DNA from: Duganella dendranthematis | Lineage (GTDB): Bacteria > Pseudomonadota > Gammaproteobacteria > Burkholderiales > Burkholderiaceae_D | Direction: 5' to 3' | Length of the DNA stretch: 64,000 nucleotides | Assembly (NCBI RefSeq): GCF_012849375.1 | Contig: NZ_CP051684.1 | Span: 4,650,001 to 4,714,000 of the forward strand | Part shown: positions 30,244 through 46,514 of the stretch, in pieces | How positions within the stretch are numbered: position 1 is the first letter of the stretch | Layout: every line of letters begins with the position of its first letter | The notes under the pieces: model-generated | What the model saw: the letters and a program-made list of their open reading frames with translations, nothing else | What the model was told of the DNA's origin: nothing | The model's database searches: none | Program-made: the position numbers and the translations under genes

Positions 30244-31067
30244 TACAGGCAAGCGCCTACGCCGAGTTTGACCGCCACGGCGTCGTGATCGTCGCCGGTC
30301 TTCGCAGCGGCCGGCGGCTGTTCGCCCTGATACAGCGTGGCGATCATCTGCGGGGTGACCTGGTCGCGCGGCAGATCGAAGGCGATGCGGCCGTCGCGCA
30401 GGGCGACGATGCGCTGGAAGTGGCCTAGCGCCAGGTCCACCTGGTGCAGGCTGCAAATCAGCGTGGCGTTGCGCGCCCTGGCTTCTTCGCGCAGCGTGGT
30501 CAGGGTCAGTTCGGACAGGGCGGGATCGAGCGCGGACAGCGGCTCGTCCACCAGCAGCGACTTGGCCGGCGACAGCAGCAGGCGCGCCAGACCGCAGCGC
30601 TGGCGCTCACCGCCGGACAGGCGGTCGACGCGCGCATACAGTTTATCGCCCAGATTGAAGCGCGACAGTGCCTGCCATGCGGCTTCCGGGTCTGCAGGCT
30701 TGAACAGCGATACCAGCGCGCGCCACACGCTCCATTGCGGCAGGCGCGCGGCCAGCACCGCCGTCACCACGCGCTGGCGCGGCGGCAGCGGCGGCGTTTG
30801 CGGCGCCAGGAACAACTGCGCGCGCAAGCGGTGACGCGACGCTTCGCCCAGCGTCCACGGCTCGACGCCGAAGGCATGGAAGCTGCCTTCGGACGGCTTG
30901 TGGGACAGGGACAGCGTCGCCAGCAGGGTAGTCTTGCCGGCGCCGGAAGGGCCGATCAGGGCCAGTTGCTCGCCCTGTTCGACGGTCAGGTTGATGGCTT
31001 GCAGCGCGGGGGCAGAACGCCCGCCGAGATGGCGGACGGTCAGGTCTTGCAGTTGATACGTTGGCAT
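30243..31067 (-). CDS. PhnC-like ABC transporter ATPase
   Basis: 274 residues. Walker A GPSGAGKTT, signature LSGGERQRCGLARLL, Walker B LLVDEPLSALDP, H-loop CSLHQVD. The arrangement and the HQVDLAL segment match PhnC-type ATPases of the phosphonate/phosphite/selenate-like group. ATG 31067 follows directly on the stop of the binding-protein gene, so it is translationally coupled. Confidence 0.88.
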   Translation of the reverse strand: MPTYQLQDLTVRHLGGRSAPALQAINLTVEQGEQLALIGPSGAGKTTLLATLSLSHKPSEGSFHAFGVEPWTLGEASRHRLRAQLFLAPQTPPLPPRQRVVTAVLAARLPQWSVWRALVSLFKPADPEAAWQALSRFNLGDKLYARVDRLSGGERQRCGLARLLLSPAKSLLVDEPLSALDPALSELTLTTLREEARARNATLICSLHQVDLALGHFQRIVALRDGRIAFDLPRDQVTPQMIATLYQGEQPPAAAKTGDDHDAVAVKLGVGACL

Positions 31068-31928
31068 TTACTTCAGCAGGCCGGCGTTCTTGGCTGCGGC
31101 TTCGATGTTCTTGTAGTTGTCTACTTTGGTCGGAATGAACTTGGTTGCGCGTTGCAGGTCCATGATCGCTTTATCTTCAGGCTTGTTGGCATCCAGCGCC
31201 AGGAAGGCGTCGGTCAGCTTTTTCTTCAGATCGGCGTTCATGTCGGTGCGCACCGACCAGTTGTAATCGTAGTAGCCTGGGGTGGTGTAGAACACGCGCA
31301 CCACGCTTGGATCGACCTTTTTGGCTTCGATCAGCTTTTCCCACACCGAGATATTCAGCGCGCCAGCATCGACCTTGCCGCCGGCAACGGCAGCCACGGT
31401 GGCGTCATGCGCGCCGGAGAAGGCGATGCGTTTCAGATCGGTGTCCGGATTGATCTTGGCGGCCAGCAGGTAGTAGCGCGGCATCAGGTGGCCGGAGGTC
31501 GAGGACTCGGAACCGAAGCTCAGGGTCTTACCTTTCAGGTCGGCCAGGCTGTTGATGCTCTTGCTGGTGGTGACGAACACCGAACGGAATTTTTCATCTT
31601 CGGCGCGCTGCACCAGCGGCGTGATGGCGCCCTTGCTGCGTTCATTGGCCTGCACGAAGGTAAAGCCACCAAACCAGACCATGTCGACCTTTTTGTTGAT
31701 CAGGGCTTCCACCGAGGCGGCGTAGTCGGTCACCGGGGTGAACTCGACCTTCATGCCGATTTTCTTCTCCAGATATTCACCCAGTGGCTTGAACTTGCGT
31801 TGCAGCTCGGTCGGCGCTTCGTCCGGGATGGCGGAGACGCGGAACACGTGATCAGCCGATTGGGCTTGCGACCACGAAGCGGCCAGCATCAGGCTCGTTG
31901 CCAGCAGGGATTTGAGGGAGAATTTCAT
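31068..31928 (-). CDS. PhnD-like periplasmic binding protein, putative selenate/selenium-oxyanion type
   Basis: 286 residues from ATG 31928, which gives a signal peptide ending SWSQAQS; the open frame before it is untranslated leader. The mature start HVFRVSAIPDEAPTELQRKF, KPLGEYLEKKIGMKVEF, VDMVWFGGFTFVQA and SGHLMPRYYLLA match the PhnD/SsuA-like fold and, from memory, the subfamily annotated as putative selenate ABC transporter binding protein, found in genomes with selD. Phosphonate or phosphite remains possible. No Pho box is visible in the 127 bases upstream, which argues against a phosphate-starvation phosphonate system. Divergent from egtD. Confidence 0.75.
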   Translation of the reverse strand: MKFSLKSLLATSLMLAASWSQAQSADHVFRVSAIPDEAPTELQRKFKPLGEYLEKKIGMKVEFTPVTDYAASVEALINKKVDMVWFGGFTFVQANERSKGAITPLVQRAEDEKFRSVFVTTSKSINSLADLKGKTLSFGSESSTSGHLMPRYYLLAAKINPDTDLKRIAFSGAHDATVAAVAGGKVDAGALNISVWEKLIEAKKVDPSVVRVFYTTPGYYDYNWSVRTDMNADLKKKLTDAFLALDANKPEDKAIMDLQRATKFIPTKVDNYKNIEAAAKNAGLLK

Positions 31929-32055
31929 CAGTATTGCCCTTTTATGTGAGAAGTCGCACGGAACTTTTGGTACAGCGCTACAAAATGGATATTCAGCTAT
32001 CATAGCAAAAATCCCCCCAAGGGATTGCCACCCCAATTAGATAGGTAGGGCATTT

Positions 32056-33054
32056 ATGCAAGTATCCCGCTCCTCGGCGATCCGTGTTGTTTCGCCTCTC
32101 GCCAGCAACACCGCGCCTCAGCGGCCCGCGCACGGCAGTGCCGCGGTTATCGAAGAAATCACCGCCGGCTTGCTGGCGCGCGATGCGCATACTTCCCCCA
32201 AGTTCCTGTACGACAGCCTGGGTTCCAAGCTGTTCGAGGCGATTTGCGAACTGCCCGAATATTATCCAACCCGTACCGAAGCGAGCATCTTTGCCGCCTA
32301 TGGCGCCGACATGGCGCAAGCGGTGGGCGATGGCGCATCGCTGATCGATCTGGGTGCGGGTAATTGCGCCAAGGCGGCAGCGCTGTTCCCGCTGCTGAAG
32401 CCAGCGCAGTACGTGCCGGTCGATATCTCGCGCGACTTCCTGCTTGGCGCGGTGGCGCAGTTGCAGCAGCGCTTTCCGCAGATCGAGATGACGGCGCTGG
32501 GACTGGATTTTTCCAGCGGCTTTGAACTGCCGGACAGTGTGCGCACCGAGCGCCGGGTGTTCTTCTATCCCGGTTCATCGATCGGCAATTTCTCGCCGGA
32601 GCAGGCGGTGACTTTCCTGCGCGGCCTGCGCGCCAATGCCGGCGCCGACGGTGGCCTGCTGATCGGCGTGGACCTGATCAAGGACCATGCGGTGCTGGAC
32701 GCCGCCTACGACGACGCTTTGGGCGTCACCGGCGCCTTCAACCTGAACATGCTGCGCCACCTGAATCACCTGATCGGCGCGGACTTTGAAATCGACCAGT
32801 GGAAGCATGTGGCGTTCTTCAATCCTGCGTTGAGCCGGATCGAAATGCACCTGGAAGCGCGTTGCCCGCTGACCGTGACCTGGCGCGGCGGCGAACGCGA
32901 TTTCGCGCGCGGTGAACGGATTCACACGGAAGACAGCTACAAATACACGCGCCAGTCCTTCGTCACGCTGCTGGAGCGCGCCGGCTTTGCCACTACGCGT
33001 ATGTGGACCGACACCGACACCTGGTTCGCGGTGATTCATGCCCGGGCCAGCTGA
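32056..33054 (+). CDS. egtD: L-histidine N-alpha-methyltransferase EgtD
   Basis: 332 residues. EgtD trimethylates histidine with SAM to give hercynine, the precursor of ergothioneine and of selenoneine. Seen: FLYDSLGSKLFEAICELPEY, YPTRTEASIF (histidine-binding region), SLIDLGAGNCAKAAALF (SAM loop), YVPVDISRDFL, FFYPGSSIGNF and GVDLIKDHAVLDAAYDD. The length is normal. The start follows TAGGTAGGG. The egtB gene follows with at most one base between, so they are an operon. Confidence 0.95.
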   Translation: MQVSRSSAIRVVSPLASNTAPQRPAHGSAAVIEEITAGLLARDAHTSPKFLYDSLGSKLFEAICELPEYYPTRTEASIFAAYGADMAQAVGDGASLIDLGAGNCAKAAALFPLLKPAQYVPVDISRDFLLGAVAQLQQRFPQIEMTALGLDFSSGFELPDSVRTERRVFFYPGSSIGNFSPEQAVTFLRGLRANAGADGGLLIGVDLIKDHAVLDAAYDDALGVTGAFNLNMLRHLNHLIGADFEIDQWKHVAFFNPALSRIEMHLEARCPLTVTWRGGERDFARGERIHTEDSYKYTRQSFVTLLERAGFATTRMWTDTDTWFAVIHARAS

Positions 33055-33055
33055 C

Positions 33056-34270
33056 ATGGAACGACTTCTCGCGCGCTATGCAGCGGTGCGCAAGCACACC
33101 CTGGCGCTGGCGGAGCCGCTGTCCGATGAAGACTGCGGCGCGCAATCGATGCCCGATGCAAGCCCGATCAAATGGCATCTGGCGCACACCACCTGGTTCT
33201 TCGAGACGTTTATCCTGGAGCGCATGGAGCGCGACTTTGCGCCGTTCCATCCGGCGTTTCGCATCCTGTTCAACTCCTATTACAACGGCATCGGCGAGAA
33301 GCATCCGCGCGCGCAGCGTGGCCTGCTGACGCGGCCCGCGATGGCGCAGGTACGCGCTTACCGCGCCGACGTTGATGCACGCATCGCCCGCCTGATCGAC
33401 AGCGCGCCGTCCGCGGAACTGGACATGCTGCTGACGCTCGGCCTGCAGCACGAGCAGCAGCACCAGGAGCTGATGCTTACCGACGTCAAGCACCTGCTGG
33501 CGCAAAGCCTGCTGCGTCCTGCTTACATGGACATACCGTTGCCGGCTGCCGCACCAGTGGCGCCACTGGCCTGGATTGCCTTCGACGGCGGCCTGACCGA
33601 GATTGGTCACAACGGCGGGGGCTTCAGCTTCGACAACGAGCTGCCGCGCCATAAACAATACGTGGCGCCGTTCGCGCTGGCTTCGCGGCTGGTGACCAAT
33701 GGTGAATATCTCGACTTCATCAACGCCGGCGGCTACTTCAATGCCGCGCTGTGGCTGGCCGAGGGCTGGGACTGGGCGCGCACGCAAAACCTGAAAGCGC
33801 CGATCTACTGGTTCCAGGACGAGCAGGGCGCTTGGCAGGAATTCACGCTGCACGGCCCGCAGCCGCTGGACCTGAACCGGCCCGTCACGCACATCTCGCT
33901 GTTTGAAGCAGACGCTTACGCCCATTGGGCCGGCGCCCGTTTGCCGACCGAGTTCGAGTGGGAATATGCCGGCACGCTGGCGCCGCTGGAAACCGGTTCG
34001 CTGCATCCGTCCGGCGCCGGTGCCGGCGCAGGCTTGCAGCAGATGTTCGGCCACTGCTGGCAGTGGACCAGCAGCAGCTATGCCGCGTATCCCGGCTTTG
34101 CGGCAGCGGAAGGTGCGCTGGGCGAATACAACGGCAAATTCATGCTGAACCAGTACGTGCTGCGTGGTTCGTCGTCCGCCACGCCGGAAGGCCATGCGCG
34201 CGCCAGCTACCGCAACTTCTTCCCGGCCGGCGCGCGCTGGCAGTTCAGCGGCATCCGCCTGGCGCGATAG
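33056..34270 (+). CDS. egtB: ergothioneine biosynthesis sulfoxide synthase EgtB
   Basis: 404 residues from ATG 33056 (an in-frame ATG at 33038 overlapping egtD is equally possible). N-terminal DinB-like domain with iron ligands in WHLAHTTWFFE and LQHEQQHQEL (HxxxH), then a C-terminal formylglycine-generating-enzyme-like domain (GEYLDFINAGGY, HISLFEADAYAHWAGARLPT, EFEWEYAG, WQWTSSSY). It oxidatively joins hercynine to cysteine or gamma-glutamylcysteine. No egtA, egtC or egtE is in the window. Paralogue of senA at 43.9 kb. Confidence 0.93.
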   Translation: MERLLARYAAVRKHTLALAEPLSDEDCGAQSMPDASPIKWHLAHTTWFFETFILERMERDFAPFHPAFRILFNSYYNGIGEKHPRAQRGLLTRPAMAQVRAYRADVDARIARLIDSAPSAELDMLLTLGLQHEQQHQELMLTDVKHLLAQSLLRPAYMDIPLPAAAPVAPLAWIAFDGGLTEIGHNGGGFSFDNELPRHKQYVAPFALASRLVTNGEYLDFINAGGYFNAALWLAEGWDWARTQNLKAPIYWFQDEQGAWQEFTLHGPQPLDLNRPVTHISLFEADAYAHWAGARLPTEFEWEYAGTLAPLETGSLHPSGAGAGAGLQQMFGHCWQWTSSSYAAYPGFAAAEGALGEYNGKFMLNQYVLRGSSSATPEGHARASYRNFFPAGARWQFSGIRLAR

Positions 34271-34288
34271 TGCCAGACGGAGGCGGGG

Positions 34289-34563
34289 CTAGGCCAGGTG
34301 GCGCGCGATGCTGTTGGGGACTGTCTATACGTGCCAGTCCGGCGTTCAGCGCCCGCCACGCCAACATTCTGCTCCAGGGGCAGCACGTCGATCTGCAAGC
34401 GGTCGGCATAGCTGTGCGCGATGGCGGCGGGATGGTCGGTAGAAGCGTCGTTTGCCACCAGCACCGCAAAATCGCGGAAATGCTGCTGCGTCAGGCTATC
34501 GAGCGTTTGCGCCAATGTTGCCGCAGCGTTGTGGGCGGGGATCAGTACTGTGACTTGTGCCAT
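34289..34563 (-). pseudogene. remnant of a family 2 glycosyltransferase
   Basis: The first 72 codons read as the start of a GT-A enzyme: VTVLIPAHNAAATLAQTLDS, VANDASTDHP, LPLEQNVGVAGA. The frame then changes: LNAGLARIDSP continues in a second frame and NSIARHLA, then a stop, in a third. The catalytic domain beyond the first 90 or so residues is missing, the remnant ending 18 bases from the end of egtB. It starts 32 bases after the intact glycosyltransferase gene, so this cluster once extended further and was cut off beside egtB. Confidence 0.75.
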
Positions 34564-34595
34564 ATTCTCTTGTTGATCGGGCATTAAGAGAAAAC

Positions 34596-35483
34596 TCAGC
34601 TGAAGCGTTCGATCAGCCTGGCGACCTTGTCGACATCTTCCATGCGCCGGTGGGCAAAGCAGATATTGCAGAGCGTGAGGTAGTGGTTCCGGATGATCTT
34701 GTCGACGCTGGCCGCAAAATCCGCAGGCAGCGAGCCGCGCAGGTAGAACAGATACTCGATGAAATCGAGCTCGAATTTGTTGACCGTGGCCATATCGACC
34801 TTGACCCGCTGGTTCCAGGCGGTCGGGTCGCCTTCACGGTAGGCGGCGCCCAGCAGGGGCAGATACAGGGCGCCGCCGCGCATCGAGCCCCACACCTGGA
34901 TAAAATAATCGATGACCGGCGGCTGCTGGAAAAACCACGCAGGCATGGTGTCGATCACGCTGCGCCGCACCAGCAGCGCCGCGGTCGGCATGAAGCCGCC
35001 GTCGCCTTCGATCACCTCGCCGGGCGCGATCAGCCGCGGTTGATCGCCGTGATCGGCATAATTGCCCGTGACCTGGTCATCGTTCCAGCGCACCCGGGTG
35101 GCGCGATGGAAGCACAGGTCGACATGGGGCAGCAGCTCCAGTGCGGTGCACTGCAAGGCCAGCTTGTCTGGCGAGGTCCAGAAATCGTCGCCTTCGCAGA
35201 TCGCCAGCAGCTCGCCGGTGCATTCGGCCATGATGTACGGCCACATGGAAATCTGGCGGCTATAGATGTTTTGCGGCTGGCGGATGATCTTGACCGTATG
35301 GCGCGAGGTGGCGGCAAATTGCCGGTAGATGGCTTCAGAACCATCGGTCGAGGCATCGTCGTGGATCACGATCTCGATCGGCCGGTTCAGCTGTTGGGCC
35401 TCGATGCCGGCCAGGGCCTTGCCGAGATAATTCGCGTGGTTGTACGCCATGACCACCACCGAGACGGTTTGCGTTGCTGTCAT
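34596..35483 (-). CDS. family 2 glycosyltransferase
   Basis: 295 residues, GT-A fold: VSVVVMAYNHANYLGKALAG, EIVIHDDASTDGSEAIYRQ (nucleotide-sugar binding), LLAICEGDDFWTSPDKLALQ (DxD-like EGDD/F region), CFHRATRVRWNDDQVTGNY. No TM helix. Probably adds a sugar to a cell-surface glycan or flagellin; acceptor unknown. Its ATG overlaps the methyltransferase stop by 4 bases. Confidence 0.88.
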   Translation of the reverse strand: MTATQTVSVVVMAYNHANYLGKALAGIEAQQLNRPIEIVIHDDASTDGSEAIYRQFAATSRHTVKIIRQPQNIYSRQISMWPYIMAECTGELLAICEGDDFWTSPDKLALQCTALELLPHVDLCFHRATRVRWNDDQVTGNYADHGDQPRLIAPGEVIEGDGGFMPTAALLVRRSVIDTMPAWFFQQPPVIDYFIQVWGSMRGGALYLPLLGAAYREGDPTAWNQRVKVDMATVNKFELDFIEYLFYLRGSLPADFAASVDKIIRNHYLTLCNICFAHRRMEDVDKVARLIERFS

Positions 35484-36190
35484 TTTTCGTAGAGGAAGAA
35501 GGGTTCTGCCGGATTGATGCCGAGCTGGCCGGCATCAACCTCGATGCCCAGCGTCTGGTGGTTGCCGCCGATGTATTTCAGGCCGGCGGACGCGATGATG
35601 GTGAAAATATCGGTGCCGTACAGGCGCACATGGTCGGACTGGCCGAACAGCATCTCGCGCGTCACCACCGACGACGTCGATTCCTCCACGATGGTGCTGG
35701 GCAGAATGGACGAGTACGGCGTTTGCAGGATGGCCCGGCCGCCTGGCTTCAGTACGCGGGTCAATTCGCGGACCGCTTGCTGATAGTCGTGCACATGCTC
35801 CAGGACATGGTTGGCGATCACCAGGTCGAAATGGTTGTCGGGGAAGCCGATGTCCAGCATGTCGATTTTCTGAATCTCCGCCGAGTTCGGATACATGTCG
35901 GCAAGTATGTGCTCTTGCGGCTGCTGCTGCTGTACCAGCAGGCGCAGATAGCGCTCTGGCGCGAAATGCAGCACCTTGCCGCCGGCAATGCGCTGCAGCA
36001 GGCCTGGCTGGCTCAGGTAGATGAACAGGTGACGCTCGCGGTCGGTGCTGCCGCAGTGGGGGCAGCCGAAATTATCGAGATCCGAGCCGACCAGCTGGAC
36101 TGCCTTTTGCAGCGGACTCAACGCAGCATAACCCTGGTGGTAGGGCAAAAATTGTTGCACGTTCTGCCGGCAGACTACGCAATATTTCAT
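35480..36190 (-). CDS. class I SAM-dependent methyltransferase with Cys-rich N-terminus
   Basis: 236 residues. The N-terminus carries two Cys pairs, YCVVCRQN and GCPHCGSTDRERH, which look like a zinc site. The methyltransferase core has KVLHFAPERYLRLLV, DMLDIGFPDNHFDLVIANH, VLEHVHDYQQAVRELTRVL and KPGGRAILQTPYS. Such proteins accompany surface-sugar genes and may methylate a glycan. Translationally coupled to the glycosyltransferase. Confidence 0.85.
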   Translation of the reverse strand: MKYCVVCRQNVQQFLPYHQGYAALSPLQKAVQLVGSDLDNFGCPHCGSTDRERHLFIYLSQPGLLQRIAGGKVLHFAPERYLRLLVQQQQPQEHILADMYPNSAEIQKIDMLDIGFPDNHFDLVIANHVLEHVHDYQQAVRELTRVLKPGGRAILQTPYSSILPSTIVEESTSSVVTREMLFGQSDHVRLYGTDIFTIIASAGLKYIGGNHQTLGIEVDAGQLGINPAEPFFLYEK

Positions 36191-36238
36191 GGGGGATATC
36201 GGCGCCGTAGGGCGCTGTCCTTATAGTGAGTGGGCAGA

Positions 36239-37009
36239 TCAGGAGGTGACGGCGTCGTCTTCCTCGATCTGGATCTTGACGTAATAGCGTTTGCCGTTCT
36301 CGGCGGTGAAATAGGCGTTGCGGAAGCTGCCATGCGTGGTGGCGCGCAGCAATTGCAGGTGTTGCCCCAAGGTGCCCACCGCAGCCAGATCCAGTTCGCA
36401 CAGCTGCCGGTAGTCCTGGATGCTATTGTAATTGCCGTCGGTCGGCGGCGGCACGGTGTGGAAGCGGCCGCGGATGATGCTGGCGATGTGCTGCGCAATC
36501 AGGTGCTTTTCAGCCGCAATGACTTTGCGGTAGACCTCCAGCGAGGTGTCGGCCGGCGCGATCTGCACCGCCTGCTGGGCGATGATGCCGCCGTGGTCGA
36601 CTTCGGCGTCCATCACGTGGATGGTGGCGCCGATCGGCAACCCGTTCAGTAGCGAGAACGCTTGCGGGAACCAGCCGCGGTTGTACGGGTTCAGGCCGGG
36701 GTGAAAATTGATGCAGCAGACTTGCTCCACCAGTTGCCGCGGAAAGATCTGCTTGCAGTGCAGGCTGAATACCAGGTCGTAATCGCGCAGCACGCGCGCC
36801 ACGGTGGCGGGGTCCTTAATGTCGATGCTCGCTGCACCGATATCCAGCATCGCTTGCGGCGCGCGATTGCGCACGGTGTAGCAGAAATCGACCGCCAGCG
36901 GCTGGCCGAAATCGTGTTTTTCGAGCTCTGCGCGCAAATGCAGCGACAGCTCCGAGTTTTCGGAGATCACCAGCAGCCGTTGCACGGGGTGGTTCGGGCG
37001 CATGTCCAT
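36239..37009 (-). CDS. dTDP-4-amino-4,6-dideoxyglucose formyltransferase-like (WbkC/VioF type)
   Basis: 256 residues. The formyltransferase active site is clear: CINFHPGLNPYNRGWFPQAF (catalytic Asn and His), SLLNGLPIGATIHVM, DAEVDHGGIIAQQAV (catalytic Asp). The N-terminal VFSLHCKQIFPRQLVEQV matches sugar N-formyltransferases using N10-formyl-tetrahydrofolate. This would make an N-formylated amino sugar for a surface glycan. The genes making the amino sugar are outside the window. Confidence 0.85.
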   Translation of the reverse strand: MDMRPNHPVQRLLVISENSELSLHLRAELEKHDFGQPLAVDFCYTVRNRAPQAMLDIGAASIDIKDPATVARVLRDYDLVFSLHCKQIFPRQLVEQVCCINFHPGLNPYNRGWFPQAFSLLNGLPIGATIHVMDAEVDHGGIIAQQAVQIAPADTSLEVYRKVIAAEKHLIAQHIASIIRGRFHTVPPPTDGNYNSIQDYRQLCELDLAAVGTLGQHLQLLRATTHGSFRNAYFTAENGKRYYVKIQIEEDDAVTS

Positions 37010-37024
37010 GTTAGCGTTGCCTGA

Positions 37025-37096
37025 TCACGCGCGATCGGCCTGGGCGGCCAGGGCCGCGGCAGGATGGGCAGGGAGGCGACTGAGTACGGCGGGCAT
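37025..37096 (-). CDS. possible 23-residue small ORF upstream of the formyltransferase
   Basis: ATG 37096 is preceded by AAGGAAGAG at good spacing and reads MPAVLSRLPAHPAAALAAQ and so on to a TGA 15 bases before the formyltransferase start. It is too short for the open-frame cutoff. It may be a leader peptide or coincidence. Confidence 0.3.
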   Translation of the reverse strand: MPAVLSRLPAHPAAALAAQADRA

Positions 37097-37180
37097 GCTC
37101 TTCCTTAATTCTTTTGTTGAGGTAATGGTGCCACGTTGCAGATGATGCTATAAGCAAGCTACTCCGTCAAGGCGGGCGTC

Positions 37181-38722
37181 CTACAGGCGGAAGCTGCTGA
37201 CCACTTGGTTCAGTTCGCTAGCTTGGTCTTGCATGGCGGCGGCCGCGGCGGCCGCCTGTTCGACCAGGGCGGCATTCTGCTGGGTCACCTGGTCCATCTG
37301 GCTGATGGCGATGTTGATCTGCTCGATGCCGCTGCTTTGTTCGTGGTTCGCCAGCGTCATTTCCTCGACAATCGCGGTCACCCTGCGCACGCTGTCCTGC
37401 ACTTCGCTCATGGTGTTACCGGCCAGGTCGACCAGCTGCGCGCCGGCGGCTACCTTGTCCACCGAGTCGTCGATCAGCTGTTTGATTTCCTTGGCGGCGC
37501 TGGCCGATCGCTGCGCCAGCGTGCGCACTTCCGACGCCACCACGGCGAAGCCGCGACCTTGTTCGCCGGCCCGCGCCGCTTCCACTGCCGCGTTCAAGGC
37601 CAGGATATTGGTCTGGAAGGCGATGCCGTCGATCACGCTGGTGATATCGACGATCTTGCGCGACGAGTCGTTGATGGCGTTCATGGTGTCGACCACCTGC
37701 GCCACCACCGCGCCGCCGCGCTGCGCGACTTCGGTGGCGCTCTTGGCCAGCTGATTGGCCTGCTGCGCATTGGCGGCGTTCTGCTTGACGGTGCTGGTCA
37801 TTTCCTCCATCGAGGCCGCCGTTTCTTCCAGCGAGCTGGCTTGCTGCTCGGTGCGCGACGACAGGTCCATATTGCCGCTGGCGATTTCCGCCGATGCGGT
37901 GTTGATCGCACCGGTGCCGCTGCGCACGCGACCGACGATGTTCGACAGGTTGGCGCTCATCTGCGCCATCGCTTCCAGCAGCTGACCCATTTCATCGCGC
38001 TGGGTGCTGCTGATGTTGTGCGTCAGGTCGCCGGCGGCAACCGCACGCGCCACCCGCAGCGCCTCGCCGATTGGATCGGTGATGGAGCGCGTGACGCGCC
38101 ACGCAAACGCCAGTCCGAGCGCCAGCGCCACCAGTCCAAGCCACGCCATCATCTGGCGCGCCATCGCGATGTCGTGCTTGACGGCGGCGCCGTTTTCTTC
38201 CACCACGGATTTCTGCAAGTCGTTCAGCTTGCGGATGCTGTCCTGCAGCCTGCCCAGTTTGGGCTGCATGTTGCTACGCAGGAGGTTGAGGGCAGCATCG
38301 CGCTGGCCGTCCGCCAGCAGCTTGCCCACTTGCGTGAACGAGGCCACGTACGCCTTGCGTTCATCGCCGATGCGCGCCAGCAGCGCCTTGCCGTCGTCGC
38401 GCGCAACCAGGCGGTTGAGCGTTTCCAGCGCGACGGTGATGGTCTTCTTGTTGGCGTCCATCTCGCTCTTGATGGCGGCCACACGCGTGGCGTCGTCGGT
38501 GGTGAAGAGTTCCAGAGTCAGGGCGGAGTTGGCGCGGGTGGTGGTGCTGACGGTGGCCGCTGCTTCGGCCTTGACCCAGTCATTGTCGATGATGGTGTCG
38601 TTGATGGTACCGATGCTGCTCAGCCTTTGCAGACCGATCCCGATCAGTATCGCCATCAATACCAGGACCGCGCCAAAGGCCACGCCGAGGCGCGCGCCGA
38701 TTTTCAGATTCGAGATATTCAT
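37181..38722 (-). CDS. methyl-accepting chemotaxis protein
   Basis: 513 residues from ATG 38722. TM1 (about 12-32), a four-helix-bundle periplasmic ligand domain (4HB-type, about 35-190), TM2 (about 193-212), HAMP, and the signalling hairpin with tip [40 protein letters not shown]. Methylation-type Glu/Gln sites flank it ([17 protein letters not shown]). Ligand unknown. No pentapeptide for CheR binding at the end (SSFRL). Confidence 0.93.
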
Positions 38723-38779
38723 TCGGCTGCTCCATATGGTGGACATGGAAGCAGTATAGCGGGGAGGGTGATGATAAAG

Positions 38780-38808
38780 GTTGCACGGAGGGGACGCCTC
38801 CGCGCAAC
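38780..38808 (-). terminator. intrinsic terminator after leuA
   Basis: On the reverse strand, GTTGCGCGGAGG and CCTCCGTGCAAC form a 12-bp stem (one G-U pair) with a 5-base loop, followed by CTTTATC. It sits 15 bases after the leuA stop and separates leuA from the MCP gene. Confidence 0.6.
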
Positions 38809-38822
38809 GGATTGCCCTAGCC

Positions 38823-40517
38823 TTAGGCCGAGATGGCGCCTTTGGCCTGATCCTCTTCCGAACGCACCAGCTGGCGATTGACGGCGCTCAGCACCGCCTT
38901 GAAGGAGGCGGTCAGGATGTTGCTGTCGGTGGCCGCGCCAAACAAGGTCGGGCCATTGGCCAGGCGCAGTTCGACATAGCACGCCGCCTTGGCGTTGGCG
39001 CCGGAGCCGATCGAGTGCTCGTGGTAGTCCATCAGTTTGATGTCCAGGCCGAGCGCATCGACGAAGGCGTCGATCGGGCCATTGCCGCCGCCTTGCAGCG
39101 CCAGTGGCGCGCCACGGTGCAGCATGGCGATATCGATCTGCACCGGCTCGTCGCTGCTGGTGTCTTCCACCATTTTGTGCGACTGGTAGGCGTACGGCGC
39201 GTTCTGCTCGAAGTACTCTTTGCTGAAGATGTTGTAGATCCCTTCGGCGGTGATTTCCAGGCCGGTCTGGTCGGCCACGGCTTGCACTGCGCGGCTGAAC
39301 TCAATCTGCAGGCGGCGCGGCAGCACCAGGCCGAAGTCCTGTTCCAGCAAGTAGGCCATGCCGCCTTTGCCGGACTGGCTGTTGACGCGGATCACGGCGT
39401 CGTAGCTGCGGCCCAGGTCTTGCGGGTCGATCGGCAGGTAAGGGATTTCCCAGATCGCGCCTTCCTGTTGTTTGGCGAAGCCCTTCTTGATCGCGTCCTG
39501 GTGCGAACCGGAGAAGGCGGTGAATACCAGGTCGCCCACATAGGGGTGACGCGGGTGCACCGGCAATTGGTTGCATTCTTCAACCACTTTGCGCACTTCG
39601 TCGATGTCGGAGAAGTCCAGGCCGGGATTGACGCCCTGCGTGTACAGGTTGAGCGCCAGCGTCACCAGGTCGACGTTGCCGGTGCGTTCGCCGTTACCAA
39701 ACAGGCAGCCCTCGACGCGGTCGGCGCCGGCCATTACCGCCAGTTCCGCCGAAGCGACGGCGGTGCCGCGGTCGTTGTGCGGGTGGACCGAGATAATCAG
39801 CGAATCGCGGCGCGCCAGCTTGCGCGACATCCATTCGATCTGGTCGGCGTAGATATTCGGCGTGCTGCATTCCACGGTGGACGGCAGGTTGATGATCAGT
39901 TTTTTGTTCGGGGTCGGCTCGAAGATGGCGCTGACGGCGTCGCAGATATGCTTGGAGAAGTCCAGTTCCGTCGTGGAGAACGACTCCGGCGTGTACTCGT
40001 AGCCCCAGTCGGTTTGCGGATGCTGCTTGGTCAGCTCCTTAACCAACTTGGCGCCGGTGGTGGCGATGTTGGTGATCTCTTCGCGCGACATGCCGAACAC
40101 CACCTTGCGGAACACTGGCGCCACCGAGTTATACAGGTGGACGATGGCGCGTTTGGCGCCGACGCAGGAGTCCACGGTGCGGCGGATCAGCTCTTCGCGC
40201 GACTGGGTCAGCACGATGATGGTGACGTCGTCCGGGATGCGGTGCTCGTCAATCAGCTTACGCACGAAATCGAAGTCGGTCTGCGAAGCCGAAGGAAAGC
40301 CCACTTCAATTTCCTTGATGCCGATCTTGATCAGCAGGTCGAAGAAGCGCAGTTTTTTCTCGATGCTCATCGGCTCGATCAGCGCCTGGTTACCGTCGCG
40401 CAGGTCGGTGCTCATCCAGATCGGCGGTTTGCTGATCACGGCGTTCGGCCAGCTGCGGTCGGACAATTGGACGGCTGGGAAAGGACGGTATTTGCTCGCT
40501 GGGTTCTGCAACATCAT
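38823..40517 (-). CDS. leuA: 2-isopropylmalate synthase (class II LeuA)
   Basis: 564 residues. LeuA condenses acetyl-CoA with 2-ketoisovalerate in the first committed step of leucine synthesis. Seen: [18 protein letters not shown] (catalytic RDGNQ), [36 protein letters not shown] (HPHND, metal His), [16 protein letters not shown] and a C-terminal leucine-sensing domain ([12 protein letters not shown]). The double Met start (40517/40514) follows AGGAG. A leucine-rich leader peptide lies 76 bases upstream. No other leu genes are adjacent. Confidence 0.96.
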
Positions 40518-40921
40518 GGTAATGCTCCTGGATCGGGAATATAGGGGACTGGCTAAACGCTGTGGCGAAGGGCTGCGGCGCGGCCACGGGATACTAGGCG
40601 CGGCAACCGATCGGTAGTTTTAGCAGTAGCGACAAGGCTGGGAGCATCGGTACAACTTTCCTGGATTTTGTGAAGACGGTGCGGCTTATGGCCGGCACGG
40701 GGTACAACTGAGACGCGGATTAAACGCGTGCTAGTAGACGCGCTGCTAGCGATAGGGCGCTGGCAGGCGATAGCAGGAAAGCGGATAGGTGCAGATGCGA
40801 GATCATTCCTTAAATGTAAGCGATCCGCGCCGCGCCCGTCAAGCGAATGTTTATTTGTTTGATTTGATTTTTTATCAATGTGGCCCTACCATCAAGGCTC
40901 TTTTCATAGAGGAGGATATCG
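40518..40921. other. 404-base intergenic region between leuA and a secreted protein gene
   Basis: Holds the leuA leader (40594-40647) and its ribosome-binding site, plus G+C-rich arms such as GTGGC/GCCAC around 40561-40587 that could form attenuator structures. I see no clear terminator with a U-run. The right end carries GAGGAGG, the ribosome-binding site of the next gene. No other gene seen. Confidence 0.6.
40594..40647 (-). CDS. leu leader peptide (attenuation-type)
   Basis: A 17-codon frame on the leuA strand reading [17 protein letters not shown]. It has six leucines, three of them CTA, a codon rare in this G+C-rich genome, clustered as CTA CTG CTA AAA CTA. AGGAAA at 40657-40662 is a proper ribosome-binding site. 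The leader start ATGCTCC is complementary over 7 bases to GGAGCAT, the leuA ribosome-binding region (40522-40528). This is the architecture of leucine-responsive ribosome stalling; the downstream switch is inferred. Confidence 0.7.
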
Positions 40922-41419
40922 ATGCGCTGGATTTCTGCTGTGGTGTGGATGTTGTTTGCCGGCGCCGCGTTTGCCGCGCCGGCAAAGCCGGTGACGACGC
41001 CGGAGGATGTGGCGGCGATTACTGCGGTGACCGAGCAGTTCCAGGCCGCGCTCAAGGCCAAGGATGTGAAGGCACTGTCGTCGCTGCTGCTGCATTCGAA
41101 TATCCTGTGGACGTCACCCGCGTCCGACAAGCAGGCGGCGAAGATGCGCGCGGAGACCGATGTCAATTTCGACGGCGTGAACGCTGGCGGCTATAGCGGC
41201 TTTGCGCAGTTCGTGAAGAACTCCAAGCTGCCGATCGAAGAGCGCTTCTACAACGTCAAGATCACCCAGGACGCCGATCTGGCCTGGGTGATGTTCGATT
41301 ACGAATTTGTCGGCGACGGCAAGGTGGAAAACTACGGCATCGAGACCTGGCAGATGGTCAAGCGCGGCGGCCAGTGGAAGATCTTCTCGGTGGTTTGGTC
41401 GACGCACTTCCCGGATTAA
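40922..41419 (+). CDS. secreted SnoaL/NTF2-like protein
   Basis: 165 residues: signal peptide ending AGAAFAAP (about 19) and an NTF2-type fold (VTEQFQAALKAKDVKALSSL, GIETWQMVKRGGQWKIFSVV). A strong Shine-Dalgarno GAGGAGG precedes ATG 40922. Exported; ligand or reaction unknown. The next gene begins 4 bases after the stop. Confidence 0.82.
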   Translation: MRWISAVVWMLFAGAAFAAPAKPVTTPEDVAAITAVTEQFQAALKAKDVKALSSLLLHSNILWTSPASDKQAAKMRAETDVNFDGVNAGGYSGFAQFVKNSKLPIEERFYNVKITQDADLAWVMFDYEFVGDGKVENYGIETWQMVKRGGQWKIFSVVWSTHFPD

Positions 41420-41423
41420 TGAG

Positions 41424-41798
41424 ATGCGCAAGGGACAAATTGCCGGTCTGGCCTTCGTCTTCATCTGGTTTTTTGTCGGCGGCATCATGCACTTCGTCGC
41501 CACCGACACGGAAGCGCGCATTGTGCCGCCGTACATTCCGTGGCCGGTGGCAGCGGTGCTGGTCAGCGGCGTGTTTGAGCTGCTGGGCGCCGCCGGCATC
41601 CTGATCGGCCGCACGCGCAGGGCGGCCGGCGTCGGCCTGTTCCTGCTCACATTGGCGGTAACGCCGGCGCATATCTACATGCTGCAGCGGCCCGAGTTGT
41701 TCCCGGTGCCGCTGTGGGCATTGTGGCTGCGGTTGCCGATCCAGGCCGCCTTGCTCTGGCTGATCGCCTGGAGCACCTGGCGGCTGCGTCCCCAATAA
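41424..41798 (+). CDS. DoxX-like small membrane protein
   Basis: 124 residues with four TM helices (GLAFVFIWFFVGGIMHF, VAAVLVSGVFELLGAAGILI, GVGLFLLTLAVTPAHIYM, LRLPIQAALLWLIAW). The pattern GGIMHF, then FELLGAAGIL, is typical of DoxX/DUF4870-like membrane proteins. ATG 41424 lies just past the previous stop, so co-transcription is likely. Convergent with selD, one base apart. Confidence 0.8.
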   Translation: MRKGQIAGLAFVFIWFFVGGIMHFVATDTEARIVPPYIPWPVAAVLVSGVFELLGAAGILIGRTRRAAGVGLFLLTLAVTPAHIYMLQRPELFPVPLWALWLRLPIQAALLWLIAWSTWRLRPQ

Positions 41799-41799
41799 A

Positions 41800-42846
41800 T
41801 CAGCTGACGATCACGCCCGCTTTGCCTGCGGTCATGCGGCCGATGACGGCGGCCTCGCCGAACCCCTGGTCGCGGAACAGGGCCAGCACTTCCTCCGCGC
41901 TGCCGGCGTCGCACGACACCAGCAGGCCGCCCGAGGTTTGCGGGTCGGTCAGCAGCGAGTGCTGCGCCGGCGTGATGGTTTCGGCAAGCTGGACGTCCTT
42001 GCCATAGGCTTCCCAGTTGCGGCCCGAGGCGCCGGTGAAGTAGCCGTCCTGCGCCAGTTGCTCGACGCCAGGCAGCAGCGGGATGGCGGTCATGTCCAGA
42101 TGCGCTTCCAGCTTGGCGCCGCGCGCCAGTTCCAGCAGGTGGCCCAGCAGGCCGAAGCCGGTGACGTCGGTCATCGCGTGCACGCCGGCCAGTTCGGACA
42201 AGGCCTTGCCGGGTTTATTCAGTTTGGTGGTGTTGGCGATCATGGCTTGGTAACCTTCGTCATCCAGCTTGCCTTTTTTGAGCGCGGCCGACAGCACGCC
42301 GACGCCCAGCGGTTTGCCCAGCACCAGCACGTCGCCGGCCTTGGCGTCGGCATTGCGCTTCACTTTCGACGGATGGATCAGGCCCATGACCACCAGGCCG
42401 TAGATCGGCTCGACCGAATCGATGGTGTGGCCGCCGGCGATGGGAATGCCGGCTTCCGCGCAGATCGATTCGCCGCCCTTGATGATCTTGCCGATGGTCT
42501 CCACCGGCAGTTTGTTGATCGGCATGCCCACCAGTGCCAGCGCCATGATCGGCGTGCCGCCCATCGCATACACGTCGGAGATGGCGTTGGTGGCGGCGAT
42601 GCGGCCAAAGTCGTACGGGTCGTCGACGATCGGCATGAAGAAGTCGGTGGTGGCGATCAGCGCCTGCTCCTCATTGAGCTTGTAGACTGCCGCATCGTCG
42701 GCCGTTTCGATCCCGACCAGCAGTTCCTTCGGCACCGGGAAGCCATTGGAGTTCTTCAGGATCTCGGACAGCACGCCGGGCGCGATTTTGCAGCCGCAGC
42801 CGCCGCCGTGGGAGAAAGAAGTCAGTTTGATTGCGTCGTTGCTCAT
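41800..42846 (-). CDS. selD: selenide, water dikinase (selenophosphate synthase), SelD/SenC
   Basis: 348 residues. Makes selenophosphate from selenide and ATP. The N-terminal active loop GGGCGCKIAPG contains the catalytic Cys and Lys; ATP-binding features include LIATTDFFMPIVDDPYDFG, AATNAISDVYAMGG, AGGHTIDSVEPIYGLV, VTGFGLLGHLLE and LLTDPQTSGGLLVSC. It sits 16 bases downstream of senB on the same strand, so here it fits the SenC role of feeding selenoneine synthesis; it may also serve tRNA selenouridine or selenocysteine, whose genes are not in the window. Confidence 0.95.
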   Translation of the reverse strand: MSNDAIKLTSFSHGGGCGCKIAPGVLSEILKNSNGFPVPKELLVGIETADDAAVYKLNEEQALIATTDFFMPIVDDPYDFGRIAATNAISDVYAMGGTPIMALALVGMPINKLPVETIGKIIKGGESICAEAGIPIAGGHTIDSVEPIYGLVVMGLIHPSKVKRNADAKAGDVLVLGKPLGVGVLSAALKKGKLDDEGYQAMIANTTKLNKPGKALSELAGVHAMTDVTGFGLLGHLLELARGAKLEAHLDMTAIPLLPGVEQLAQDGYFTGASGRNWEAYGKDVQLAETITPAQHSLLTDPQTSGGLLVSCDAGSAEEVLALFRDQGFGEAAVIGRMTAGKAGVIVS

Positions 42847-42862
42847 GGTGTGAATTCCCTGG

Positions 42863-43855
42863 TTAAGTCCTATGCAGCAGATTATCCACTAACTCCAGCA
42901 AAGCCGCTTGCTCCACGGCCGGCGCGAACAGCGGCGCGCGGGCGTCGCATTGCGCGCTCAGTGTGGCGTGGAAGCGTTCGTCCTCTATCACGCGGTCAAT
43001 CAGGTGCGCCAGCGCGGCGGCGTCGCCGCACGGGAAGTAGCCCTGGTAGTCCTCGCCCAGCATGCCGCGGTTGCCACCGATGTCGCTGGCCAGCACCGGC
43101 ACGCCGGCGCAAACCGATTCGATGATGACGTTGGCGCCGCCTTCCATGGTGGAGGTCAGCGCCGTGGCGCGGCTGCGCTTGAGGCGCTGGCGGGTGGCGG
43201 CATGCGGCATGGCGCCCAGCCACTGGTAGCGCGGCTGGGTGGCGGCGGTCGCCTGTGCGGCCTGCGCCAGCACAGCGTCCAGCGCGCCGCCGATATGGAC
43301 CAGGCGCGCCGACGGTGCGCGCACCAGCGCGGCGGCGCGCATGAAGGTGAGCGGATCTTTTTCAGGCCGCAGGTGACCGATCATGCAAATGTCGGCATGC
43401 CGGCGAGCGGAAGAACGCATGGGCCGCAGCGTGGCGGCGGACTGGTAGATCACGCTGGTCTTGGCGCGCAGCGGCGGCGGCAGGGCGTTGACGCCGTCCG
43501 TCTGCAACACCACCAGCGCAGTGGCCTGCTGCAAAGAGCGCTGGGCGCTGGCGTCGCTGTGGATATCGCGATACAGGTCGGTGCCGGTCAGCAGCAGGAT
43601 CGCCGGCCGGCCGGGATGGGTGCGGTGCCAGGCGTCGAGCGACGCCGCCGTGCGTCGAGCGTGCAGCGCGATCAGCAGGTCGGGCGGCGCGGCGGCGCCG
43701 GCTTGTTGTGCAGTGGTGCGGACGGGCCAATCGCCCGATATCGTCACGCGGTGGCGCGCGCGCAGGTATCGCGCCCAGCGGCTGGCGCTCTGCCAGTTGC
43801 CGTTGTTGGCGTCGGCGGCGGCCGGGCTGACGATCCAGATATGCGTTTTGGTCAC
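42863..43855 (-). CDS. senB: selenosugar synthase SenB (GT-B glycosyltransferase)
   Basis: 330 residues. SenB joins selenophosphate to a UDP-N-acetylhexosamine to give a selenosugar. The protein is a small GT-B enzyme: IWIVSPAAADANNGNWQSAS, RWARYL at the N-terminus, CMIGHLRPEKDPLTFMRAA, YQWLGAMPHAATRQRLKRSR, TSTMEGGANVIIESVCAGVP and VLASDIGGNRGMLG. The start is GTG 43855. The assignment rests on the match to SenB-type enzymes and on its position between selD and the divergent senA. A generic family 1 glycosyltransferase is the alternative. Confidence 0.88.
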   Translation of the reverse strand: MTKTHIWIVSPAAADANNGNWQSASRWARYLRARHRVTISGDWPVRTTAQQAGAAAPPDLLIALHARRTAASLDAWHRTHPGRPAILLLTGTDLYRDIHSDASAQRSLQQATALVVLQTDGVNALPPPLRAKTSVIYQSAATLRPMRSSARRHADICMIGHLRPEKDPLTFMRAAALVRAPSARLVHIGGALDAVLAQAAQATAATQPRYQWLGAMPHAATRQRLKRSRATALTSTMEGGANVIIESVCAGVPVLASDIGGNRGMLGEDYQGYFPCGDAAALAHLIDRVIEDERFHATLSAQCDARAPLFAPAVEQAALLELVDNLLHRT

Positions 43856-43889
43856 TGGTGTTTTGCTTGAAAGTGATTACAATCGGCGC

Positions 43890-45083
43890 ATGACCTCTAC
43901 ATTCAGGAATGCCACATCGCAGCAGTTGGCCGAAGCTCTCCAGCATGCCCGGGATTATACGCTGTCGCTGTTCGATTGTTTTGCCGTCGCCGGGATGGAC
44001 GCGTCGGCGCGCGTGCCGCAACTGCGCATCATCAATCCACCGTTGTGGGAATTGGGCCATATCGCCTGGTTTGCCGAATGGTTCATCCTGCGCGAAGCGG
44101 CGTCCAGTCATCCGGCCGATGCCAACGGCAATTGCCTGCTGACCAAGGGCGACGACTGGTTCGACTCGGCGCGCGTGCCGCACCGCAGCCGCTGGACGCT
44201 GGACTTGCCCAGCACCGGCGGCGTCAAGACCTATTGTCACGAGGTGCTGGACCGGGTGCTGGACAAGCTGACGCGCGAACCGAACACCGACCAAGCGCTC
44301 TATCCTTATCGCCTGGCGCTGGCGCACGAGGACATGCACGGCGAAGCCTTCCTGTACACCTTGCAGACCCTGGGCCTGCCGGCGCCGGTGCGCACCGCAG
44401 CCGAAGCGCAACCGATGTTTGCGCCGTCCGAAATCGGCTTTCCCGGCGGGACCATCGAACTTGGGAGCCAGGAGGGCGATGGCTTCGTGTTCGATAACGA
44501 GCGCCAGGCGCACCGGTTCCATGTGGCGCCGTTTCGCATGGATAGCACACTGGTCAGCAACGCCCAGTATGCAGATTTCGTCACCGATGGCGGTTACGAC
44601 CAGCGCCAGTTCTGGAGCGACGCCGGCGCCGCCTGGCTGATGCGGCAGGAGCGTTCGGCGCCGCGATACTGGCAGCGCGACGGCGCGCAATGGCGCACCA
44701 TGCGCTTCGGCAGGCTGTGCACGCTGTCCGGCGCGGAACCGGTGCGGCACATCAGCCTGTTCGAGGCGCAGGCTTATTGCGCCTGGGCCGGTCGCCGCTT
44801 GCCGACCGAGGCGGAATGGGAGTATGCGGCCTTGTCGGGCCATCCCGCGTTTCGCTGGGGGCAGCTGTGGGAATGGACAGCGTCGCCGTTCGAGCCGTAT
44901 CCGGACTTCCAGCCTGACCGGTACCTGGAATATTCCGAGCCTTGGTTCCACACGCATCAAGTGCTGCGCGGCGCGTCGTTCGCCACGCCGTCGCGTTTTG
45001 GTTCGGCCAAATTCCGGAATTTCTATGCCCCGGAACGCGACGATCTCTTTGCAGGTTTCCGCACCTGCGCCTGGCCGGGATAG
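43890..45083 (+). CDS. senA: selenoneine synthase SenA (EgtB-like non-haem iron enzyme)
   Basis: 397 residues. SenA couples a selenosugar to hercynine on the way to selenoneine. N-terminal DinB-like domain: YTLSLFDCFAVAG, NPPLWELGHIAWFAEWF (first iron His), then LALAHEDMHGEAFLYTLQTL (HxxxH pair). C-terminal FGE-like domain: HISLFEAQAYCAWAGRRLPT, EAEWEYAAL, LWEWTASPFEPYPDF, VLRGASFATPSRF. It is clearly distinct from the EgtB at 33 kb. Only 34 bases separate it from the divergent senB, so the promoters must be compact or lie inside the genes; TACAAT (43878-43883) is a possible -10. Confidence 0.9.
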   Translation: MTSTFRNATSQQLAEALQHARDYTLSLFDCFAVAGMDASARVPQLRIINPPLWELGHIAWFAEWFILREAASSHPADANGNCLLTKGDDWFDSARVPHRSRWTLDLPSTGGVKTYCHEVLDRVLDKLTREPNTDQALYPYRLALAHEDMHGEAFLYTLQTLGLPAPVRTAAEAQPMFAPSEIGFPGGTIELGSQEGDGFVFDNERQAHRFHVAPFRMDSTLVSNAQYADFVTDGGYDQRQFWSDAGAAWLMRQERSAPRYWQRDGAQWRTMRFGRLCTLSGAEPVRHISLFEAQAYCAWAGRRLPTEAEWEYAALSGHPAFRWGQLWEWTASPFEPYPDFQPDRYLEYSEPWFHTHQVLRGASFATPSRFGSAKFRNFYAPERDDLFAGFRTCAWPG

Positions 45084-45142
45084 TTTCTCATTTGGCCGAT
45101 GCTCTGCTATGCTTTTTGATTTTCCAGCCAAAGGCGCCGTCC

Positions 45143-46420
<1,278 letters not shown>

Positions 46421-46431
46421 GGTCATCGCGC

Positions 46432-46470
46432 CTGGCCTGCCAGGGCATGACACTGGCTTGCCAGGCCATG
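46432..46470. repeat. two tandem copies of an 18-base dyad
   Basis: CTGGCCTGCCAGGGCATG (46432-46449) and CTGGCTTGCCAGGCCATG (46453-46470) are repeated with a 21-base period, two helical turns. Each contains a perfect CTGGC-2-GCCAG palindrome. They lie in the 94-base gap upstream of the next lipoprotein gene and look like a paired operator. Confidence 0.55.
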
Positions 46471-46514
46471 CGGGCAGCGTAGGGAGAAGTTGTTTTTCTT
46501 TTTATACTGGCCGC

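Follow-up and report, generated by a model that had tools for sequence, protein, structure and literature searches.

Evidence for an intact selenoneine locus in Duganella dendranthematis and for coupling of SenA catalytic residues to senB in its relatives

Does a block of three genes, selD, senB, and senA, in a 64,000-nucleotide (nt) stretch of the Duganella dendranthematis genome encode selenoneine synthesis, and does a senA gene carry the same meaning in related genomes? The stretch, which we call the window, spans positions 4,650,001 to 4,714,000 of contig NZ_CP051684.1 and comes from a single-contig genome of 6.53 Mb, labelled G000 in our genome comparisons. The sen pathway is known (PMC9814287) and is described further in the excerpts used here of PMC10891094, PMC10702425, PMC10903977, and PMC11929427. 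Based on profiles, a tree, and the catalytic residues of SenB and SenA, we conclude that the window very probably carries a selenoneine locus that is intact and belongs to the known sen type, and so a new member of a known pathway. What is new here, judged from sequence, is that SenA catalytic residues track senB presence in the window's nearest relatives.

An earlier note on this DNA had placed three open reading frames here, with 34 nt between senB and senA, and had read the trio as the selenoneine pathway. The sequence bore out the coordinates, and the evidence below supports the pathway reading. The features are as follows.

41800-42846, minus strand: selD (also called senC), selenophosphate synthase (TIGR00476, NF002098)
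42863-43855, minus strand: senB, selenosugar synthase, GTG start (TIGR04348, PDB matches, key residues)
43856-43889, no strand: divergent gap of 34 nt, with TACAAT at 43878-43883, 6 nt ahead of the senA ATG
43890-45083, plus strand: senA, selenoneine synthase, ATG start, 397 amino acids (NF041186, PDB SenA, tree)

The proteins of the sen locus

Each of the three proteins scored above the curated cut-offs of its family models, in the profile comparison that the earlier note had proposed. SenA reached 541.9 bits against NF041186, 122 bits above the cut-off of 420, and its closest PDB chains are SenA (8ryz/8k5i, 326 bits). These scored higher than the second-best match, the EgtB-like selenium enzyme OvsA, a selenoxide synthase that was compared by PDB match only (8ux5/8u41, 211 bits). 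Alignment to EgtB 4x8b placed H57, H146, H150, and Y345 of the window SenA at chain positions 52, 135, 139, and 378, which run one above the published numbers (H51, H134, H138, and Y377 of Mth EgtB). According to the excerpts of PMC13426267, the iron of EgtB is bound by H51, H134, and H138, and Y377 is essential in native C-S bond formation. The HxxxH pair (H146-x3-H150), the third ligand H57, and the catalytic-type Tyr are all intact in the window SenA. The EgtB-like enzyme of the earlier note was thus upheld in its HxxxH pair and in its FGE domain, which was clear (134 bits, Pfam); its DinB domain proved weaker than stated.

SenB scored 402 bits against TIGR04348, “selenosugar synthase SenB” (cut-off, 300), and its PDB matches 8jjq/8fbx/8k5u are all SenB (E values of 1e-79 to 1e-80), consistent with the earlier assignment of a GT-B glycosyltransferase as SenB. 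It keeps N20, K166 (equivalent to K158), and E238 (equivalent to E231); N20, K158, and E231 are invariant in 146/146 SenB rows (duplicates included), and the excerpts of PMC10891094 describe K158 as the catalytic lysine and assign roles to N20 and E231. The same excerpts describe T23 and the sugar-donor motif EGGAHV as highly conserved in SenB, although not defining. The window SenB has S23 and EGGANV instead, yet passes the SenB model. Asn stands at the N/H position of this motif in 74/76 SenB rows from Oxalobacteraceae, the window included, versus His in 67/70 rows from outside the family, and Ser replaces T23 in 12 of the 76 Oxalobacteraceae rows, again including the window. Rows from a collection of named species overlap some family genomes (L159 = G089); the counts of 146 and 76/70, and a further one of 125, are not fully independent.

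SelD scored 443 bits against TIGR00476 (cut-off, 125) and 546 bits against NF002098 (cut-off, 299), and its GCGCK loop aligned to and matched that of the best PDB chain, the selenide, water dikinase 3u0o. Cys17 and Lys20 of this loop are active-site residues, and the selenophosphate synthase with a Cys/Lys loop reported earlier was confirmed.

Some observations weigh against the selenoneine reading. The DinB_2 domain of SenA scored 15.8 bits, under the Pfam cut-off of 24.8, and a promoter scan of 41500-45500 returned no sigma-70-type site. With S23 and EGGANV, the sugar-donor preference may differ from that of Variovorax paradoxus SenB, which has T23 and EGGAHV. SelB and formate dehydrogenase genes, recognised by eye only, stand near selA.

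Proposed pathway

Two further genes of the window, ∼7.5 to 12 kb away from the sen genes, would provide the second substrate and a sulfur counterpart.

32056-33054, plus strand: egtD, histidine N-alpha-methyltransferase, the hercynine source (TIGR03438, 382 bits; cut-off, 290.9)
33038-34270, plus strand: egtB, a sulfoxide synthase of the ergothioneine type (TIGR03440, 554.7 bits; cut-off, 360)

The egtB protein scored 383 bits against the SenA model, under the cut-off of 420, and it matched EgtB 8qf6 in the PDB. An Rfam search of 31000-46500 returned nothing at gathering scores.

In our best explanation, gene identity, SenA placement, residues, and selenium genes were computed, while chemistry and product are taken from characterised relatives. 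SelD would turn selenide and adenosine triphosphate into selenophosphate, SenB would use selenophosphate and a uridine diphosphate sugar to form a selenosugar, and SenA, a three-histidine non-heme iron enzyme, would couple the selenosugar with hercynine in a product that breaks down to selenoneine. Hercynine would come from EgtD, encoded nearby in the window, and the single SelD would also feed selenocysteine (through SelA) and 2-selenouridine (through SelU). Less firmly, senA may be expressed from its own nearly leaderless promoter, and senB and selD may share one transcript. Because egtD and egtB pass their models in the same window, we infer that the cell should make hercynine, ergothioneine, and selenoneine. 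The locus resembles the sen cluster of V. paradoxus DSM 30034 in SelD/SenC, SenB, and SenA, as judged by family model and PDB match.

SenA in genomes with and without SenB

We compared SenA across the window's genus, here taken as Duganella in the broad sense: the SenA row of one member, G089, is identical to that of Duganella sp. CF517, and proteins of other members are identical to Pseudoduganella and Rugamonas ones. SenA was found above cut-off in 68 of 74 genus genomes and SenB in 44; 25 of the 74, about a third, carry senA without senB. Residues were read in 58 further rows from genus genomes outside our family sample (34 SenB positive and 24 SenB-less), 12 of which (11 SenB positive, 1 SenB-less) are identical to proteins examined earlier. 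All 34 SenB-positive rows have His at positions 57, 146, and 150 in the window SenA numbering (HHH), as well as S93, and 33 have Y345; the exception, G218, has SenB and a senA gene in two frames. Among the 24 SenB-less rows, by comparison, 19 have lost at least one His of the triad, and the other 5 are HHH with Asp or Glu at Y345, so that at least one of H57, H146, H150, and Y345 is missing in 24/24. S93 is Ala in all 24. Loss of a His had been predicted beforehand and held in 19/24; the four-residue rule, which holds in 24/24, was widened after the rows had been seen.

The broken active sites take varied forms, including HYR, QHR, RHL, RQH, RHQ, and QYQ. Nevertheless, the SenB-less senA genes of the genus have full-length frames of 391 to 407 amino acids and stand divergently beside selD (loci L106 and L259-L282); one of the 24 genomes, G240, is 60% complete, and its senA and selD are adjacent nonetheless. 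We rejected the label “iron-less” for these proteins as a group because 5/24 retain the three His and change Y345 to Asp or Glu, and because, in the excerpts of PMC13426267, the H138 position is replaceable in one of two evolved EgtB variants, with some promiscuous activity left.

A similar pattern was found in the family sample, which comprised 99 loci for residue counts. SenA was HHH in 70 of 75 genes from SenB-positive genomes, and the 5 broken genes are second copies, each accompanied by an HHH copy in its genome (L102, L104, L107, L111, and L122). In SenB-less genomes, 23 of 24 genes were broken. The remaining one (L131, genome G135) is a distant row taken below the SenA cut-off, 38% identical to the window SenA, with its three His, Y345, and S93 all intact. 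SenA from named senB loci was HHH in 53/53. Long open frames of broken SenA without adjoining senB were seen at L099, L101-L104, L107-L124, L126-L128, and L130. Four genomes (G004, G094, G098, and G149) have SenB, with SenA above cut-off not among the places listed, which cover 91 of the 92 genomes in the SenA tally. G004 holds an intact SenA beneath the cut-off, and the nearest SenA matches of the other three score like EgtB.

SenB state changed 4 times on the genus tree (bootstrap range, 3 to 6) and 7 times on the family tree, at least 3 of them forced by well supported branches, in a family count made without L035, L125, and L129. Given these changes, more than one senB loss is likely.

Some SenB-less senA genes have other surroundings. 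At L112 and L116, in a Janthinobacterium-like genus, senA lies just downstream of phoU- and phoR-like genes, preceded at L116 by pstB (all by eye), and no selD was found in these two stretches. At L101 and L124, egtD-egtB precedes senA in the same orientation, with ∼65 nt and ∼630 nt, respectively, between egtB and senA, a placement that hints at a tie between senA and ergothioneine synthesis. Among plasmids, 223 records matched the SenA query, all at <60% identity, and several of the 20 listed are annotated egtB. On two small plasmids of Methylorubrum populi (NC_010727.1 and NZ_AP014810.1), a gene annotated as senA shares 41% identity with the SenA of the window.

Gene order and the divergent gap

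The earlier note had described senA as split off from the other genes as a divergent unit. Across 195 family genomes, with the window's own locus uncounted, 95 loci have SenA above cut-off; senB lies beside senA in 64 and does not adjoin it in 31, and the two genes are divergent in 64/64. Among 80 named senB loci from the species collection, about ten of which belong to Oxalobacteraceae, senA is present in 54 and divergent in 53 of these, and 26 have no senA in the stretch. As divergence is the normal arrangement, also seen in other Burkholderiales loci such as that of Variovorax sp. PCZ-1, nothing has been split off in this genome.

The TACAAT box ahead of the window senA recurs in 27/64 divergent family loci, at most 40 nt from where senA starts, compared with about 1% per locus in shuffles, the loci being related to one another. 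In 19 of the 27 the spacing is exactly 6 nt, a count that rests on automatic start choice. The spacing is 6 at L057, and at L033 it is 15, where a GTG was chosen behind an ATG at spacing 6. The position of the box points to a senA message with little or no leader. We rejected the idea that senA is special in this respect: TACAATN{3,12}ATG occurs at 126 places in the genome versus 54 for a reversed control, and the spacing is 6 or 7 in 40 of 100 listed places.

Alternative explanations

An EgtB/OvoA-type sulfur enzyme in the place of SenA would make the product of the locus ergothioneine or ovothiol. EgtB (the window egtB; 8qf6 and 4x8b) and SenA share a fold family and the three-His iron site, and both use hercynine as substrate. 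SenA still scored 301.3 bits with the EgtB model, but this falls short of the cut-off of 360, as do its 107.6 bits with the OvoA N-terminal model, by which OvoA was compared (cut-off, 400). A tree of 105 rows, with SenB-adjacent family rows thinned to odd-numbered loci and every third locus taken from the named collection, placed 18 EgtB rows, including the window egtB, in one branch with a support of 100, apart from the 87 SenA rows that include the window's. The earlier note's tree check thus set SenA outside EgtB. Additionally, 27 sites that are conserved among SenA proteins are rare in EgtB (L035, L105, L125, and L189 were left out of the canonical set). With a true egtB in the same window and senB adjoining senA, a sulfur product is almost certainly the wrong reading. 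A selenophosphate synthase dedicated, as SenC, to selenoneine alone is also very unlikely. The selD gene follows only 16 nt behind senB on the same strand, as a dedicated gene might, and the excerpts of PMC10891094 use both SelD and SenC for the one step. However, G000 has SelD at one place above cut-off (two weak matches fall far beneath), together with one SelA and one SelU in profile searches and a selenocysteine tRNA (tRNA-Sec; 72 bits versus a gathering score of 47, with ARAGORN concurring), and thus neither a second SelD nor an absence of other selenium pathways. Furthermore, selD still adjoins senA in 24/24 SenB-less loci fetched from the window's genus, and in G040 it lies near egtDB, where genome profile searches found neither senA nor senB. 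Since the genome's only SelD accompanies SelA, SelU, and tRNA-Sec, we favour a shared selD over a dedicated senC; of the “selD/senC” of the earlier note, the SelD identity stood, and selD is the better name.

For the relatives, we think it likely that senB loss turns SenA into a maintained pseudoenzyme in Oxalobacteraceae (repeatedly so within the window's genus), with iron ligands or Tyr and Ser93 replaced, the remainder under purifying selection, and the full-length gene kept (beside selD in 25/25 genus loci fetched). Ordinary pseudogenes on their way out are a rather unlikely explanation: active-site residues have been lost in many different ways, and G040 has no senA at all. Set against this are the intact frames, the same Ser-to-Ala change in 24/24, and the ratio of nonsynonymous to synonymous substitution rates (dN/dS), whose median in the genus is 0.223 in SenB-less versus 0.215 in SenB-positive rows (L293 was left out of this and the site analysis). 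The median is 0.116 in the Janthinobacterium-like genus, named from protein matches (11/12 Janthinobacterium-like and 12/15 clade-2 rows used). Pairwise dN/dS includes time before senB loss and could mask recent relaxation, and the rows share ancestry. Change is also focused: among 192 sites invariant in SenB-positive genus rows, 127 stay invariant in SenB-less rows, and 10 (H57, S93, R99, H150, Y156, T160, D343, R344, W352, and N377) change in at least half of them, with 98% of such invariant sites kept in the FGE core and 84% around HxxxH. By these measures, the broken copies do not resemble decaying genes. The window's gap raises a last alternative, in which a symmetrical bidirectional promoter balances senA and senB, much as the earlier note had proposed for a shared region. 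The sequence ATTACAAT at 43876-43883 reads -10-like on both strands, and the homology-anchored gap is short throughout (median, 43 nt; ≤60 nt in 56/64 family loci). The mirrored senB-side box is present in the window but in 0/27 of the loci that have the senA-side box, no -35 element is conserved among the compared TACAAT loci (L057 was left out), and no promoter passed the scan. We therefore set aside both the symmetrical -10 and balanced expression from it as unlikely, and tentatively consider separate promoters likelier.

SelD in other sen loci

SelD was found in 73 of the 74 SenB-positive family genomes, SelU in 71, and SelA in 23 (SelD and SelU presence per genome was taken from best E values; the set sizes agree with the tallies). 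Unlike the window, whose SelD is plain, Variovorax sp. PCZ-1 has a 790-amino-acid oxidoreductase-SelD fusion as the gene after senB (L170:6869-9241; TIGR03169, 522 bits; SelD, 290 bits). A SelD match of 33 to 36% was also read by eye well downstream of senB in 31/80 sen loci. Two kinds of SelD may thus serve sen loci, the fusion having been tested in L170 only. At L035 (genome G077), a divergent sen pair with a SenA 48% identical to that of the window has no selD in its stretch; that genome has its selD at another place, next to selU, and the sen pair was perhaps acquired separately.

Implications

The NCBIfam SenA model NF041186 accepts 5/5 tested broken copies from SenB-less genomes (467 to 495 bits), and none of the titles or abstracts among the matches listed from one open-access library describes inactive SenA copies. 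A match to this model alone does not predict selenoneine; SenB together with H57/H146/H150/Y345 should do better. If the maintained pseudoenzyme reading is true, the SenB/SenA route to selenoneine is closed in many genomes with a “selenoneine synthase” annotation, and SenA has a second, noncatalytic or repurposed role, perhaps with EgtB/hercynine or in selenium handling. A selD gene within a sen operon can serve as the cell's only selenophosphate source.

The window locus would be an intact natural case within a genus of mixed SenB state, and its main interest lies in the coupling between SenB and the SenA site in its relatives. The genus allows a matched comparison of which residues SenA needs for selenosugar and of what the dismantled copies do, with Ser93 (Ser in 34/34 SenB-positive and Ala in 24/24 SenB-less rows) as a sharp candidate for selenosugar use.

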